Position numbers and translations under genes: made by a program
The notes under the pieces: generated by a model
The model's input: only the letters and a program-made list of their open reading frames with translations
The model's database searches: none
Told to the model about the DNA's origin: nothing
NCBI RefSeq assembly: GCF_038595005.1
Contig: NZ_CP151997.1
Location: 558,001 to 622,000 of the forward strand
Direction of reading: 5' to 3'
DNA length: 64,000 nt
Source of the DNA: Chryseomicrobium sp. FSL W7-1435
Lineage (GTDB): Bacteria; Bacillota; Bacilli; Bacillales_A; Planococcaceae
Shown here: positions 14,920 through 57,388 of the stretch, piece after piece
Numbering within the stretch: position 1 is the stretch's first letter
How the letters are laid out: each line of letters opens with the position of its first letter

Positions 14920-14927
14920 TGTGATTA

Positions 14928-14970
14928 GAAGGCAATTTGGAAGATTTCATCATCCAAATTGCCTTCTTTT
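14928..14970. terminator. Bidirectional terminator
   Basis: A perfect 14-bp stem, GAAGGCAATTTGGA with its complement TCCAAATTGCCTTC around an 11-nt loop, is followed by TTTT. It lies between the convergent DUF262 and helicase genes and overlaps the helicase stop. Confidence 0.8.
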
Positions 14971-17860
14971 ATTCATGCGTCAAATAATGATACAAATTAA
15001 ACTCCACAGGCTGCTGTAATTTGAAGATCATAGTGACAACTGGCTTTAACTCCCCGTATTTATCAGGCATGATCTCTTGTTGTAATGAAGACAGGTCCAC
15101 TGTGACTTCACCGATATAGTAAAGGTCTTTGCCTTCGATATTGTCCTTCTTAATAAATAAATGAGGTCGTAACCCGTCTTTAAAAGCTTGAAGAAATCTC
15201 TTGATTGATGGAGAGTCTAATCTAAAGTTTACTTTGGTGTACCATTTGAAATTTTGATCATCAATAAAAGAGTCACCATATTGAAGAGTTTCAATAGTAT
15301 CGGTTTCTTTATGATAATTAACAAAAATAGGCATACTAGAATGCTTGAATTGATAGCCATACATTGTAGAATGATCGCCTTCATCCCAATTCAAAAGTTT
15401 GGCTACATCACGTCGAGAATACTTTTTATAAAGGGTAAATATATTCGCCGAATCAAATGTTTGAGATTTTAATATGGCAACGGCCAATATATCCTTTACA
15501 CGATGAGCAAAGAGAGGGTTACTTGTTAAAGATTTCTTCCAAGTGAAACTTAAAGCGTACATTCCGTGTTGAAGTTCTATTGGTGGTAGGTTCATATACT
15601 TTCTCTTTGTCTCTGAAGTGAAAAATGAATAATCCAAAACTCGGAGTGCTGAGTTAATTGATCTTTCATTCGCATTCAAATTCGATTCAGAAATCAATTG
15701 AATGACGTCATTTTTTGAAAGCTGAGCGTCGGACATCAAATCTTTCAGAATAACAATTTCGTGTAGTCTTTTCCCAGCAAGTAATTCCTGTGAAAGAAAA
15801 GTCAGCATTCCAACTTCATAATTAGAGAAAGGTAACTTCTCCCGTTTAATTCTATTAACAAAAGCATCATAATGGGCGTTACTTTCCATGATAGTCACGG
15901 GATCAATTGAATGATTTTCAACAAAATCAAGTAGGTCAGGTTCTCTACCTAATCGATTGTAAAGAGCTAGAAATGTTTCTTTAAGATATTTAAAATTATC
16001 AATACGTGCCGTATTAATCGATCGATAAATTTGTTCTTTCGCAACCTGTTCAAAAATAACTGTTGATGCACCTTTAATATAGCTAGTATCGGCGACCGAG
16101 CGACGAATCGTATCTTTATTTAACGACGAGTCTTCGGACAAAGCCATAGGAATTAAATAGTTATTTTTGTAGTTACCAATGAAATCAATAATGGTCACGT
16201 AGTCTTTAGACGGATGTTTCCGTAATCCACGTCCCAATTGTTGAATAAAGATAATACTGGACTGCGTCTGACGAAGCATGACTACTTGATTGATACTTGG
16301 AATGTCGATTCCTTCATTGAAAATATCGACAGTAATAATATAGTCGAGATGACCATTCTCCAATTCATCAACTGTCTCTAAGCGTTGCTCCATAGAATCA
16401 GAGCCAGCTAATGCTTTTGTCCGGTAACCACGGAGATTTAATTGCTCAGAAATTTCTTTTGCTTCTTCAATACGACTACAGAACATAAGTCCTCGAACCG
16501 AATCTCCCGCATAACCATAGTAAGTGATCTTCTCCACAATATGATTAATGCGTAAATCAGACACTAAAGAACTGAACGAAACATTTTCATCGAGTAATAG
16601 TCCATCTAGTTCAATATCTGTTACACCGAAGTAATGGAAGGTACTCAGTAAATCTTCTTCAAGAGCTTCTTGAAGTCGAATTTCATAGGCTACGTTGTAC
16701 TGAAATAGCTCGAAAATGTTCCAAGCATCTGTTCGCTCTGGAGTCGCTGTCATTCCAAGTAAAAAATCTGGCCTGAAATAGTCGATTACACGTTGATACG
16801 ATTCGGCACCAGCTCGGTGAACTTCGTCGATAATTATGTAATCAAAGTGATCTTTAGCTATTTGACTGAAAACATTGGGTTTAGAGAGGGTTTGAACCGT
16901 TGCGAAAACGTACTTCGCATCCGTGTTTTTCTCTGAACCTGTTAAGAATCCAAACTGTTCATCGTGTGCACCGAGTACACGCATGAAATCTGCTTTTGCT
17001 TGTTTTAGGATTTGTTCTCTATGCACGATAAATAACATGCGTTTCGGAGCAGCAGCCCGCACGTCAAATGCAGAAAGATATGTCTTTCCTGTACCAGTTG
17101 CAGATACTACTAATGCACGATTTTCTTGTTGTCTCATACTAGCAAGGCTTTCAAGGGCACGAGTTTGCATTTTGTTTGGCTCGATTTGAACAGCTACTTC
17201 TAAAGGGTTGGTTCTATAGATCTTTTCATCAGGCTCAATAGCAGTCAGGAGCTTCTGGCGTTCTACAGTTTCTACATAACGTTCGGTGTATCTTTGAATC
17301 CATTCTGTTGAAAGTGGAGCTGCTGAATCCCATACGTCCTTAAATTGATGGACGAAATGACGAATTAAGTCTCCGTTTTCGTTAGAGGTTAACCGGACGT
17401 TCCACTCATAGTTTACTTTTAAAGCATTGGCAGTTAGATTTGAGCTACCTACAATCATCGAGTACGTATGAGCGTGTTCAAATATGTAACCTTTTGCATG
17501 AAAACCTTTGAGTGATGTTAAGCGTACTTCGACATTCGGAAGTTTCAGGAGCTCTTCGAAGACTTTAGGCTTATTAAATTCTAAGAAAGTAGAGGTGAGA
17601 ATTTTCCCTGAGATTCCTTTTAAATGCAAATCATGAAGAGCGGCTTTTAATGTTGCGAGCCCGGACTCAGTAATGAATGCTACTGAGAAGAAGAATGACT
17701 TACAAATTTGCAGATCCTCTAACAGAGTTGTTAAAACAGCCTCGCCACCACTTGTTTGGTTTAAAAGTAATTGTGGTTTTAAAGTGTCATGGGCAGCGAT
17801 TTGATGGTTAATAAATCCTTTTTCTAAGGACTGCTTAAGTTGCGCATCTGAATAACTCAT
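14969..17860 (-). CDS. PLD-nuclease / DEAH-helicase / DUF3427 protein
   Basis: 963 residues. The N-terminal phospholipase-D-type nuclease (about 30-190) has FHAKGYIF (H121, K123) and GSSNLT (138-143). The SF2 helicase core has motif I SATGTGKT (253-260), motif II DEVH (345-348), TATPERTD (from 371) and QQLGRGLRKH, followed by the DUF3427 C-terminal region. This matches the COG3886-COG1061 architecture of putative restriction/defence helicases. ATG 17860 overlaps the Nudix stop (ATGA), so the two are translationally coupled. The retron reverse transcriptase lies upstream on the same strand. A role in nucleic-acid degradation is inferred. Confidence 0.88.
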   Translation of the reverse strand: MSYSDAQLKQSLEKGFINHQIAAHDTLKPQLLLNQTSGGEAVLTTLLEDLQICKSFFFSVAFITESGLATLKAALHDLHLKGISGKILTSTFLEFNKPKVFEELLKLPNVEVRLTSLKGFHAKGYIFEHAHTYSMIVGSSNLTANALKVNYEWNVRLTSNENGDLIRHFVHQFKDVWDSAAPLSTEWIQRYTERYVETVERQKLLTAIEPDEKIYRTNPLEVAVQIEPNKMQTRALESLASMRQQENRALVVSATGTGKTYLSAFDVRAAAPKRMLFIVHREQILKQAKADFMRVLGAHDEQFGFLTGSEKNTDAKYVFATVQTLSKPNVFSQIAKDHFDYIIIDEVHRAGAESYQRVIDYFRPDFLLGMTATPERTDAWNIFELFQYNVAYEIRLQEALEEDLLSTFHYFGVTDIELDGLLLDENVSFSSLVSDLRINHIVEKITYYGYAGDSVRGLMFCSRIEEAKEISEQLNLRGYRTKALAGSDSMEQRLETVDELENGHLDYIITVDIFNEGIDIPSINQVVMLRQTQSSIIFIQQLGRGLRKHPSKDYVTIIDFIGNYKNNYLIPMALSEDSSLNKDTIRRSVADTSYIKGASTVIFEQVAKEQIYRSINTARIDNFKYLKETFLALYNRLGREPDLLDFVENHSIDPVTIMESNAHYDAFVNRIKREKLPFSNYEVGMLTFLSQELLAGKRLHEIVILKDLMSDAQLSKNDVIQLISESNLNANERSINSALRVLDYSFFTSETKRKYMNLPPIELQHGMYALSFTWKKSLTSNPLFAHRVKDILAVAILKSQTFDSANIFTLYKKYSRRDVAKLLNWDEGDHSTMYGYQFKHSSMPIFVNYHKETDTIETLQYGDSFIDDQNFKWYTKVNFRLDSPSIKRFLQAFKDGLRPHLFIKKDNIEGKDLYYIGEVTVDLSSLQQEIMPDKYGELKPVVTMIFKLQQPVEFNLYHYLTHE

Positions 17861-18273
17861 ACCTGAATACCTTTAGTATTAAACTGCTTTTGGATTTTAT
17901 GAACGGCAGGAATATCTGCAGGTGCCCATTCTAAATTAAAAAGCTCTTCGGCAGATAACCATTTATAATCAGCATGTTCAGTTAAAATAGGTGTACCTGA
18001 TTGGATCTTTGTATAGAAGGTAGTAAGTTGAATAGTAAACGAATCATATTCATAGTAAGTACTTTCAACTTCTTCTCCCACAGTTACTTCGATTTTTAGT
18101 TCTTCCATTAATTCACGCTTCAAGGTCTCTTCGGGAGATTCTCCAGGTTCAATCTTCCCACCTGGAAACTCCCATAAGTTTGGAAGGCTCATTTGAGGAG
18201 AACGAAGTGCACAGAAGATCTGCTTCGTTTCATTAACTAGTACAGCCCCAACAACATTCACATGTTTTTTCAT
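17857..18273 (-). CDS. MutT/NudG-type Nudix hydrolase coupled to the helicase
   Basis: 138 residues with LPNLWEFPGGKIEPGESPEE and ELMEEL completing the Nudix box. It looks like the (deoxy)nucleoside triphosphate pyrophosphohydrolase (MutT/CTP pyrophosphohydrolase) branch. GGGGTGG precedes ATG 18273. Overlaps the PLD-helicase by 4 bp and starts 83 nt after the reverse transcriptase. Nudix plus PLD-helicase pairs occur elsewhere. A nucleotide-depleting or nucleotide-cleaning role in defence is only inference. Confidence 0.88.
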   Translation of the reverse strand: MKKHVNVVGAVLVNETKQIFCALRSPQMSLPNLWEFPGGKIEPGESPEETLKRELMEELKIEVTVGEEVESTYYEYDSFTIQLTTFYTKIQSGTPILTEHADYKWLSAEELFNLEWAPADIPAVHKIQKQFNTKGIQV

Positions 18274-18356: not shown

Positions 18357-19241
18357 TCATTTTGTTGGAGGGTGATAATGCTGGACATAATTAATTCTAC
18401 CAATTAGTTGATTTATATATTTTGTAGAGGAGATAGACCGCCGTGTGGCTCCTAAATGCCTCTCAACTCCATACTTTTCACAGTAATAGAGCTCTTGGCG
18501 AAGTTTTCTACGATAGTCTCTAGAAACACTCAATTTATCGTTCACAACTAATCCCGTGACCATCTGTGTCGAATATCTACGCATGAGACGCGTTTTCTTA
18601 TTATTAATTCGAAGTCTTTGAGGAGCCAAAACACTATGCAATTTGGCTAGCAAACGTTTAATTGAAAAGTCACCAGAGAACACAAGATCATCTGCATAAC
18701 GGGTATAGCGTATTTTATTCTCTGTACAATACTTGCCAACTTTTTCATCAACTTTTAGCATGAGTATATTAGACAAAGTTGGACTTGTTGGAGCACCTTG
18801 TGGAAGCCGGCCTTTGTAAGTTGTTAACTTCGTTAAGATGACTGTCACAGCTTCCGAATACCCTTGTTGGCAAAAGAAGCGGAATACAGAAACTTCTTTT
18901 AAACTTCCAAAAAAGTCTGTGAGATCTATACGAACCACCATATGTTGCCCTACATGAAAACGTGCCATTTCTTTTAAAGTTGAACCTTTTTTATAAGCTT
19001 TCGCAAAACGACTGACTGGATGTGGTTCTAAAAAGTTTTCTAAGATTTGCTGCTGAATTTTCTTCAGTAACGGAGTGGGCGCCTCAATTGTTCGGTAGCC
19101 CCCAGTACGTTTGGGAATCGAAAAGGTTCGGTAATAGTGTTTTGGACGATTGGTTAATTTATATAGATTTCTTTCTGAGAGTTGAAAAAGAGTAAGTAAA
19201 TCCTGAACTGTTAAGGTTGTAGGATTATGATTTAATTTCAT
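18357..19241 (-). CDS. Retron-type reverse transcriptase
   Basis: 294 residues, only the RT fold with no fused effector. Seen: FSIPKRTGGYRTIEAP (domain 1), RIDLTDFF (D106, D109), RLPQGAPTSPTLSN (from 146), RYTRYADDLVFSG (catalytic YADD at 182-185) and TQMVTGLVVN (VTG at 228-230). VTG is the retron hallmark. The other retron motif, NAxxH, appears as MARFH (92-96), with Met for Asn. ATG 19241 follows AGGAGG by 6 nt; a longer frame to 19280 runs into the RNA gene and is not used. The msr-msd RNA lies directly upstream. It makes branched RNA-linked DNA (msDNA). Confidence 0.93.
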   Translation of the reverse strand: MKLNHNPTTLTVQDLLTLFQLSERNLYKLTNRPKHYYRTFSIPKRTGGYRTIEAPTPLLKKIQQQILENFLEPHPVSRFAKAYKKGSTLKEMARFHVGQHMVVRIDLTDFFGSLKEVSVFRFFCQQGYSEAVTVILTKLTTYKGRLPQGAPTSPTLSNILMLKVDEKVGKYCTENKIRYTRYADDLVFSGDFSIKRLLAKLHSVLAPQRLRINNKKTRLMRRYSTQMVTGLVVNDKLSVSRDYRRKLRQELYYCEKYGVERHLGATRRSISSTKYINQLIGRINYVQHYHPPTK

Positions 19242-19266
19242 ATTAGACCTCCTCGTATCCAACAGG

Positions 19267-19468
19267 TTCCCTTCCATCACTTAATTCGCGTAAGCTGATC
19301 GTTTATGATCGGCACGGACGAACGTAGCTTCGTCCCAGTCATGATCAAAGAAGTGCAAATTCCTATTTGTGCTTCGTGTGAATGACTGGTGAATACAATA
19401 TTACTTACGGACCACGTGTACTGGCGACTCGCCATACATTTCTCATTTGCTAATCTGACGGAAGGGAA
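19267..19468 (-). ncRNA. Retron msr-msd RNA
   Basis: Between the promoter and the RT gene, the transcript begins with a1 TTCCCTTCCGTCA (19468-19456) and ends with a2 TGATGGAAGGGAA (19279-19267); they pair over 13 bp with one G-U. Six nucleotides after a1 comes TTAGC, the retron branch context, with the likely branching G at 19450. Then follow a TGGCG-AGT-CGCCA hairpin (msr), an 8-bp pair CCAGTCAT/ATGACTGG (19389-19382 and 19342-19335), a GGACGAA-gctacg-TTCGTCC hairpin (19335-19316) and a GATC-ataaac-GATC stem. The msr/msd boundary and the cDNA ends cannot be fixed by eye. No credible protein frame fills this 200-nt stretch. Confidence 0.88.
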
Positions 19469-19490
19469 AAGATCCCAATTGGATAGTGAT

Positions 19491-19555: not shown

Positions 19556-19620
19556 TCCTTGCTAATCCGCCCAAACATTCATAAAATTAAGGAAACTGTA
19601 AGTATGGACGGAGAGAAACT

Positions 19621-22053
19621 ATGAAATTAAATGTCGAACAACGGAGAATTGTCGAACTCGAGCCGACGGGACAAATGTTAGTCAAGGGCGTTGCAGGGTC
19701 TGGAAAGACGACAGTGGCTATTCGCCGTATTAACTTTCTAAAGACAAACTATTGTCATGAAGCGGATGATCAGATTTTGTTAGTGACCTATAACAAAACA
19801 CTTCTAAACTACATCAAGTTCCAATATGAACGCTTAGCAGATGCAGAAGATGAGGACTTTCAACAGTTCTTTGCTTCAAATGCGAACGTGGAAATTTCAA
19901 CGATTGATGCGCTCATGTTTAAAGCATTTGTAGATTACAATCGTCGAACCAGAAAGAGGTTAAATATTGCAGATAAGCAAATGGAGCGACAAATGCTGAT
20001 TGATGCCATTCATGAAGTGAAAAAATCGTATCCAAATGTGAAAGTGCTGTCGCCAAAGAATAGCGCGTTTCTTCTAGATGAAGTGTTATGGATGGAGTCC
20101 TGTCTGATTGAAGACATCGAAGCCTATCAAAGTGTAGACAGAATCGGGCGTGCTTCCGGCGATAGTTCCACCCCTCAAAAGCTACTAAAAAACTCTGAGT
20201 TGCGGGAAGCTATTTTTGAACTTTGGCGCGTTTTCACGGACAAAATGGAGAAGCAGGGGTTCGTCACGTTTAAACGGATGAATGTACTAGCACTTCGCCA
20301 AGTCCATGAAGTGAAGTCAAAACGCTATACCCACGTCATTATTGACGAGAGCCAGGATCTGACGCGTGTACAACTGGAGTTTTTGAAGGCGCTTTATAAA
20401 GAAAAGCCTTATTCCTCGTTATTGTTTGTGGCAGATAACACACAAAGCATTTATGCGCATTCGTGGCTGGGAAAAGGTAGACCGTATACAACGATCGGCT
20501 ACGACATGAGTGGGAAGGCACGTGCACTCAGCAAAAATTACCGGACGACGACAGAAATTTCAACGGCAGCATTTGATTTGATTGAAGCGGATGAGACGAT
20601 TCGTTCGAATGTGGATTTTGTGAAGCCAGCGTTAATTGATCGTCATGGCCACCAGCCGATCTACCGATTCTTCACGACACCGCAGAAGCAACTAGCGTTT
20701 CTAGTGGAAGAGATTCGGATACTTCAAAACGATTATGACTTGCGCGAAATTTGTCTGGTTGCGCGGAGCAATCGCTTATTAGAGAGTCTAGCGACTGGAC
20801 TAGAAGCATCCGGTATTCCGACAGAGGTGCTCCAAAGTAGTGAGCCGAACTTTGAGTCGGACAAGGTCAAGCTTGTGACTATGCATTCTATCAAGGGATT
20901 AGAGTTCAAAGTCATCTTCCTTGTCGATTTAAACCAAGGTGTTATTCCGAATGATCGTTATACAGATCTAGAGGATCAGAAGACTGTGGATTCAGATGAG
21001 CGGAAATTGTTGTATGTAGGTATGACGCGAGCGAATGAACTTCTGTATATGTCATCCGTAAAGAAGCCATCAAAATTTATTAAAGAGATAGAACGCAAAC
21101 ATCTGCGTATGAAGAAAGATTGCGCACTGCGACCATTTGAATCCATTAGCATGAGCCACTATCAGTTTACAGATCAACTGAGTGATCTCCATTCTAGGGA
21201 AGAGGTTGTGCGCCAGTGGATGCTGCGAGAACTTCATGAAACCTATGGATATCCGTATGAGCTATTGGAGCTTGAATATCCCGTACAGAAGTTTTCACAA
21301 CGGGGCTATTGTGATATCGCGGTTACGATTTACTCCGGAGAAGAGGCAATGCCGCTGCTCTTTATCGAAGTGAAACAATTTGGGGCGGGTATTGAAGAGG
21401 GCCTTAAGCAATTGAAAAGTTATTTAGAAGCAAACAGTACCGTGCGCTACGGGCTTGTGACGGACGGATTAGAGATTAAAATCATTGATCGCAATGGGGA
21501 AGAAGTACAAGACATTCCAAAATGTCGTTCTCAGTTCTTACCAGAGACAAAGAATACAAAACGCTACTTGAACCTAAAGAACGGCCGGACGTATTCCTAT
21601 GCGACAGCTCTTGATGATGAAGAGCAAATCGAGATCCGAGAAGAACATTCCGAAGTGTATTTGCAGGTGCATGAGAAGGCGACTGTTCCGATGATTGGAA
21701 ATGTAGCAGCTGGCATCCCGACTCTTGCAATCGAGGAGTACGATGCACGAATTGTTGTGCCAACGGACTGGGTGTTTTCAGCGAAGGATTCGTTCGCTCT
21801 GACCGTAACAGGCGACAGCATGACAGGGGCAGGCATTGATAAAGGGGATACAGTCCTTGTCCATCAGCAGATGTCTGCCCAACCGAATGACATCATCATT
21901 GCAGTGATTGATGATGAGGCCACGATGAAAAAGTATATGCCAATGGGCAATGATGTTTTACTGATGGCTGAAAATCCAAATTATGAGCCAATCCTCATGC
22001 GCAGTGAGGATGTCCGGATTAATGGGAAAGTGATTGGTGTGTTGAAAAAATAG
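19621..22053 (+). CDS. UvrD-like helicase / HsdR_N-like nuclease / LexA-type protease fusion
   Basis: 810 residues. SF1 helicase: GVAGSGKT (23-30), IIDESQDLT (D242 E243), FVADNTQSIY, VTMHSIKGLEFKVIFL and YVGMTRANE. Then a PD-(D/E)XK-type domain like type I restriction R-subunit N-termini: RGYCDIAV (D565) and FIEVKQFG (E583, K585). Last, an S24 LexA/UmuD domain: cleavage-type site A697-G698 in NVAAGIPT, serine S733 in TGDSMTGAG, lysine K770 in TMKKYM. The S-to-K distance of 37 residues equals that of E. coli LexA. There is no HTH domain, so it is not a classical repressor. GGAGAG precedes ATG 19621. It shares a divergent promoter region with the retron. Confidence 0.88.
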   Translation: MKLNVEQRRIVELEPTGQMLVKGVAGSGKTTVAIRRINFLKTNYCHEADDQILLVTYNKTLLNYIKFQYERLADAEDEDFQQFFASNANVEISTIDALMFKAFVDYNRRTRKRLNIADKQMERQMLIDAIHEVKKSYPNVKVLSPKNSAFLLDEVLWMESCLIEDIEAYQSVDRIGRASGDSSTPQKLLKNSELREAIFELWRVFTDKMEKQGFVTFKRMNVLALRQVHEVKSKRYTHVIIDESQDLTRVQLEFLKALYKEKPYSSLLFVADNTQSIYAHSWLGKGRPYTTIGYDMSGKARALSKNYRTTTEISTAAFDLIEADETIRSNVDFVKPALIDRHGHQPIYRFFTTPQKQLAFLVEEIRILQNDYDLREICLVARSNRLLESLATGLEASGIPTEVLQSSEPNFESDKVKLVTMHSIKGLEFKVIFLVDLNQGVIPNDRYTDLEDQKTVDSDERKLLYVGMTRANELLYMSSVKKPSKFIKEIERKHLRMKKDCALRPFESISMSHYQFTDQLSDLHSREEVVRQWMLRELHETYGYPYELLELEYPVQKFSQRGYCDIAVTIYSGEEAMPLLFIEVKQFGAGIEEGLKQLKSYLEANSTVRYGLVTDGLEIKIIDRNGEEVQDIPKCRSQFLPETKNTKRYLNLKNGRTYSYATALDDEEQIEIREEHSEVYLQVHEKATVPMIGNVAAGIPTLAIEEYDARIVVPTDWVFSAKDSFALTVTGDSMTGAGIDKGDTVLVHQQMSAQPNDIIIAVIDDEATMKKYMPMGNDVLLMAENPNYEPILMRSEDVRINGKVIGVLKK

Positions 22054-22106
22054 GAAACTTTTTAGAACCCAGCATCGTAGAATTACTTACAAAGGAGTGA
22101 CGCACG

Positions 22107-47559: not shown

Positions 47560-47573
47560 AGAACATTTGTTCT
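47560..47573 (-). promoter_or_regulatory. LexA (SOS) box
   Basis: AGAACAAATGTTCT on the reverse strand, a perfect GAAC-N4-GTTC palindrome agreeing with the Bacillus consensus CGAACRNRYGTTCG except at the ends. A promoter TTGTTG-N17-TAGAAT stands directly upstream, so LexA would block the start of transcription. It is almost identical to the box at 57370. Confidence 0.75.
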
Positions 47574-57358: not shown

Positions 57359-57388
57359 TTGCATAAAAACGAACATTTGTTCTATACT
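57359..57388 (+). promoter_or_regulatory. Promoter with LexA (SOS) box
   Basis: TTGCAT (57359-57364), 18 nt, TATACT (57383-57388). The LexA box CGAACATTTGTTCT (57370-57383) fills the spacer and touches the -10. It controls the yolD-like gene. Confidence 0.85.

Follow-up and report, generated by a model that had tools for sequence, protein, structure and literature searches.

What is a LexA-type self-cleaving domain doing at the end of a helicase-nuclease? Known SOS control runs through repressors (LexA and phage CI) and through UmuD, all of which cleave themselves on RecA filaments; the gene studied here, found in a 64,000 nt stretch of Chryseomicrobium DNA (the window, meaning the whole stretch analysed), places such a domain in one chain with a DNA motor and a nuclease. 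Judging from this LexA-type domain, the enzyme is probably switched once the cell detects damaged or invading DNA.

The open reading frame begins with an ATG and runs for 810 codons with no internal stops. The features of the gene and its product, with the evidence for each, are:

19621..22053, + strand: whole gene, UvrD-like helicase, HsdR-type nuclease and LexA-type S24 domain, 810 aa (ORF, profiles, end-to-end conservation in relatives)
19610..19615, + strand: RBS-like ggagag, 5 nt upstream of the ATG (read from the sequence)
19627..21063, + strand: compact SF1 UvrD/GajB-like helicase, residues 3–481 of a part spanning ca. 1–500 (PF00580/PF13361, GajB match, invariance, Foldseek)
21199..21516, + strand: HSDR_N_2 PD-(D/E)XK nuclease, residues 527–632 (PF13588 at 1.9e-21, invariant residues, fold match)
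21541..21648, + strand: small beta linker module, residues ca. 641–676 (secondary structure of the model, paralog sequences)
21673..22050, + strand: LexA-type S24 domain, predicted to self-cleave, residues 685–810 (PF00717 at 1.8e-29, TIGR00498, LexA fold, identity to the organism's own LexA)
21709..21714, + strand: predicted scissile bond A697-G698, after the second A of V-A-A-G (alignment; A-G in 42 of 43 homologs)
21817..21819, + strand: predicted nucleophile S733 (43 of 43)
21928..21930, + strand: predicted general base K770, 37 residues past S733 (42 of 43)

The initial annotation had proposed a helicase, a nuclease and an S24 domain in one protein, and this is borne out by Pfam, whose matches to UvrD-helicase (residues 3–279, 5e-23), UvrD_C (2e-26), HSDR_N_2 (2e-21) and Peptidase_S24 (residues 690–805, 2e-29) follow in that order and all exceed their curated cut-offs; for Peptidase S24 (PF00717) the score is 102 bits against 23.3, and the Ser-Lys dyad is present. 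The helicase carries Walker A (G26-T31), D242-E243-x-Q245 and the motif VI region (R470), and the nuclease D565, E583-x-K585 and Q597xxxY601. The catalytic residues D565, E583, K585, S733 and K770 and the A697-G698 pair lie at the positions originally named, with the Ser-Lys spacing of 37.

A model of residues 508–810, built with 33 input sequences, has a mean pLDDT of 87. Its C-terminal part, whose failure to model as an S24 fold would have counted against the initial annotation, superposes on LexA (3k2z) with a Z score of 16.3 and an rmsd of 1.8 over 118 residues, and its top structural matches include LexA on RecA filaments (8gms and 8s7g, Z ca. 16). The nuclease part matches BsaXI (Z 11.9) and an HsdR fragment (3h1t, Z 10.2), and a low-confidence loop (702–706) lies just past the predicted cut site. 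The full-length AlphaFold model is weak (mean pLDDT 68, pTM 0.45) and too poor for judging whether a lid covers the nuclease; used in Foldseek, it returned UvrD/PcrA, AddAB, RecBCD and LexA.

LexA is the best match in both sequence and fold, and likewise has a C-terminal S24 domain, an A-G site and a Ser-Lys pair 37 residues apart. With phmmer, the S24 part ranked LexA (5e-18) before UmuD (7e-10) and lambda CI (6e-4), which indicates that it is LexA-derived; across 122 residues it shares 43% identity with the LexA of this organism. However, LexA has an N-terminal winged-helix DNA-binding domain where this protein has a helicase-nuclease of ca. 640 residues: Pfam gave no match to the winged helix, and the match to the NCBIfam lexA equivalog (TIGR00498, residues 683–810) begins at model position 73. 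Since that match scores 113 bits, above its cut-off of 110.95, automatic annotation can mislabel proteins of this family; the Ilyobacter homolog is annotated as 'S24 family peptidase'. In UmuD an S24 switch also acts on a DNA-processing activity and not on transcription, but UmuD is a small, separate subunit of Pol V, whereas here the switch is on the enzyme's own chain. RecB and AddA likewise join an SF1 UvrD-type motor to a C-terminal PD-(D/E)XK nuclease; in contrast, the protein described here is much smaller, with an HSDR_N_2-type nuclease, an S24 tail and no gene for a partner subunit at its loci, and scores 55 bits against AddA/RecB equivalog cut-offs of ca. 700. The SF1 motifs of UvrD/PcrA/Rep (Walker A, DExx and motif VI) are present, with 112 bits against a PcrA equivalog cut-off of 911. 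The best PADLOC helicase match was GajB of Gabija (5e-34), which differs from a protein with its own nuclease and S24 domain, and GajA was absent among the five window neighbors scanned. HsdR of Type I restriction shares the nuclease family (HSDR_N_2) and its fold, but has an SF2 motor preceded by the nuclease, whereas here the nuclease follows an SF1 UvrD-type motor. Nhi, a stand-alone, single-gene anti-phage protein with nuclease and helicase (PMC12904381), was compared by its description; a LexA-type switch does not figure in that description. By the features tested, the protein is neither LexA nor Gabija nor AddA/RecB, and it is plausibly a single-chain, RecB-like enzyme under LexA-type control.

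The search for the three-domain architecture proposed at the outset found it repeatedly in Bacillota genomes and once on a Fusobacterium plasmid. The GTDB-based collection holds 36 loci, a few of them broken or cut by contig ends; strong matches occur in 18 of 398 Bacillota genomes, and in 7 of 291 genomes from the class of genome G452. Beyond Bacillota the sampling consisted of plasmids only, among which that of Ilyobacter carries a full-length homolog (38% identity) among housekeeping genes. Distribution is patchy also at close range, with eight intact full-length copies, one split copy and one remnant in 61 genomes of the genus and family. Across a sample of 61 Bacillota genomes, S24 matches fell in ORFs of up to 357 aa, except for four in ORFs of 820–836 aa; these four (in G000, G104, G109 and G151) are sites of the family described here, so that within this sample an S24 domain in a large protein means a member of it. 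Conservation was examined in 43 full-length members, all below 95% pairwise identity and reaching down to ca. 29%, from Bacilli, Clostridia/Tissierellia and one Fusobacterium, with the domain order kept throughout. Residues K29, D242, E243, R470, D565, E583, K585, Q597, Y601, S733 and M734 are invariant, and A697-G698 and K770 have one exception each: L059 reads V-S-G-D for V-A-A-G, and in L060 a C is aligned with K770, followed directly by a K. Every domain is under strong purifying selection: between the window and its sister locus L004, dN is 0.019 and dS ca. 1.05 (dN/dS ca. 0.02 overall), and for the S24 domain alone 0.035 and 0.82 (dN/dS ca. 0.04). A phage origin found no support, with no full-length relatives in 50,697 phage records or in two scans of viral contigs. 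A full-text search of open-licence papers found no description of the fusion, and the protein is a real, conserved and apparently undescribed combination of known modules.

No constant partner gene was found across the loci compared, and many copies, including many from Planococcus, sit among housekeeping genes. An SF2 helicase gene of PADLOC mREase_IV type nevertheless lies within ca. 6 kb (0.05–6.1 kb) at seven independent loci (the window with its sister, L020, L035, L062, L097, L098 and L099; PADLOC mREase_IV matches for the window, L062, L097, L098 and L099), against a rough expectation of ca. 0.1 loci among ca. 50, given ca. 0.35 such genes per Bacillota genome. At L063 (6980–13118) a DpdF-like gene and the Zorya genes ZorA/ZorB come right after it, and other loci have neighbors of AbiU-like (L097), Hhe/PDC-S37 (L096) or GmrSD/Orf5 (L065) type; these and the Zorya genes were picked by eye, the background comparison applying to mREase_IV alone. 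The patchiness and some of the neighborhoods suggest a role in defence, with defence-type neighbors at a minority of loci.

We also searched the 250 bp upstream of 44 homologs for LexA boxes. None scored above shuffled sequence except a borderline 8/10 box at L028 (shuffle P 0.05), whereas the same scan picked out three 8/10 boxes close in front of lexA in this organism. SOS transcriptional control was thus rejected, the boxes in the homologs being not above chance. The upstream sequences indicate that the gene is probably outside the SOS regulon, and any control by damage would have to be post-translational. In the window, one 9/10 match (19319–19332) lies ca. 290 bp upstream of the gene, within a hairpin of a likely retron RNA (see below), and two perfect LexA-box-like sites, GAACATTTGTTC, occur elsewhere (47561–47572 and 57371–57382).

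The reading that we tentatively favor is a stand-alone, probably constitutively expressed helicase-nuclease with its own LexA-type switch, whose RecA-triggered self-cleavage would most likely shut it off. We infer that the SF1 motor would load on DNA and pass it to the HsdR-type nuclease, and that the S24 domain would dimerize the protein, an expectation taken from LexA alone. On RecA filaments formed on ssDNA, the S24 domain would cut its own chain at A697-G698, separating the motor-nuclease (1–697) from the lid (698–810). Dimerization would then be lost and the new ...VAA C-terminus would be recognized by Clp proteases, so that the enzyme would be shut off; removing the nuclease once the host chromosome is damaged would amount to a built-in restriction alleviation. 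The predicted cut site is V/I-(A/S/T)-A-G across the family, and cutting before the G would yield a C-terminus in ...AA. Self-cleavage of E. coli LexA and of S. mutans IrvR exposes an end of this kind as part of a ClpXP C-degron immediately ahead of the cut (PMC5742171). For EcoKI, restriction alleviation through ClpXP proteolysis of Type I restriction complexes is known (PMC11109961). The degron analogy and the EcoKI case lead us to favor shutting off over activation, between which the initial annotation had not decided; given the predicted ...AA-COOH end, shut-off is no less likely than activation. A nuclease-helicase bearing its own sensor would connect RecA filaments directly, without transcription, to the destruction of DNA or its restraint, would allow a simple test of how cells escape damage from their own powerful helicase-nucleases, and would offer a single-gene system for RecA-driven proteolysis of an enzyme. 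Possibly, though we hold this with less assurance than the favored reading, it would be the first known enzyme with a LexA-type switch in the same chain: an anti-invader weapon under post-translational, RecA-filament-triggered control, released or withdrawn on ssDNA, with short Clostridia paralogs as modulators.

The opposite polarity, in which the S24 lid silences the nuclease or motor until RecA-stimulated cleavage after phage attack or DNA damage frees a DNA-destroying 1–697 fragment, for clearance or abortive infection, is the less likely of the two but the strongest competitor. Cleavage of the S24 domain can activate, as in UmuD, a precedent for this alternative that counts against shutting off. 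The missing LexA box would fit a pre-armed, latent enzyme, and the defence-type neighbors at a minority of loci would suit it as well. It also draws on the distribution of the domains, because in unbroken ORFs an intact nuclease always comes with S24, and S24 persists without the nuclease. The S24-less copies with an intact nuclease motif (L029, L031, L035, L054 and L055) are truncated at contig ends or broken. The single unbroken S24-less ORF that reaches the nuclease, L088 (1501–3468, + strand, 655 aa), has intact helicase motifs and has lost the nuclease ExK, and L089 (513 aa) is helicase alone. Nuclease integrity and S24 presence thus travel together, with few exceptions on which to test it, and the linkage would be expected to the same degree from an off-switch as from a lid. 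Against activation, the irreversible release of a nuclease at any SOS event would be costly for the host; a fragment ending in ...VAA should, by analogy with the ClpXP degrons, be short-lived; and the full-length model is too weak to reveal a lid over the active site.

A third and rather improbable explanation is that S24 is mainly a module for dimerization or for docking at DNA damage, or that its self-cleavage is slow or constitutive and independent of RecA, serving turnover and not a regulated switch. The LexA-like IrvR self-cleaves without RecA (PMC7101444), which speaks for this option and means that RecA dependence cannot be assumed here, and in the outliers L059 and L060, with their altered site and K770 column, cleavage may be lost. 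S24 is also kept on shortened paralogs that might serve as dimerization partners:

L090, 961–2490, − strand: shortened paralog
L092, 832–2466, − strand: shortened paralog
L057, 1501–2988, + strand: shortened paralog

In these (495–544 aa), the N-terminal half of the helicase is joined straight to the beta linker, which remains attached to S24; the Ser, Lys and A-A-G are retained and the helicase motifs are partly degenerate. Two of the three genomes (G708 and G452) also have the full-length gene, and the shortened S24-bearing paralogs are possible modulators. On the other side stands the near-perfect conservation of the Ser, the Lys and the A-G pair (42–43 of 43), which points to selected catalysis rather than to mere dimerization.

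Divergently adjacent to the gene, in the window and in L004, is a retron-type reverse transcriptase gene, with an SF2 helicase gene beyond it:

18357–19280, − strand: retron-type reverse transcriptase (PADLOC RT_III-A, 9.5e-109, Ec107-like; NCBIfam St85)
ca. 19255–19470, − strand: likely retron ncRNA (strong folding, z −2.5; ends pair, CCCUUCCGUCA...UGAUGGAAGGG)
14969–18273, − strand: DUF3427/PLD SF2 helicase (mREase_IV, E ca. 1e-269), overlapping a MutT-like NUDIX gene (PDC-S07)

That the reverse transcriptase, the ncRNA and the helicase-nuclease form one system, the last as effector, is very improbable. Besides this adjacency, its case consists of a broken copy at L029 (7863–11875), a truncated S24-less helicase-nuclease beside a reverse transcriptase gene, and of a deletion in the congeneric G003 (L113, 9264–9268) that took most of both genes at once, its scar joining window positions 18402 and 21886 so that the ends of the reverse transcriptase and S24 remain. 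However, a reverse transcriptase is nearby only at L004 and L029 among the 36 GTDB-based loci, that of L029 is of another kind (retron XI RT-protease), and no gene accompanies the helicase gene constantly; the retron was thus rejected as a conserved partner. No type III retron effector was recognized among the scanned neighbors of the reverse transcriptase, and the likely ncRNA had no match in Rfam. A chance fusion, or an error of assembly or gene calling that put unrelated genes together, is practically negligible as an explanation, as the architecture recurs in several classes and in tens of genomes, each sequenced independently.

Two repeats were noted around these genes. A 19-nt inverted repeat (95%) has one arm in the reverse transcriptase gene (19024–19042) and the other, 3 kb away, at the helicase stop codon (22051–22069), and may be due to chance. 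Where the GmrSD_N and DUF3427 genes converge, a near-perfect hairpin (14927–14967) lies between them and is likely a two-way terminator. The mREase_IV/NUDIX pair persists in G003 despite the loss of the reverse transcriptase and helicase-S24 genes.
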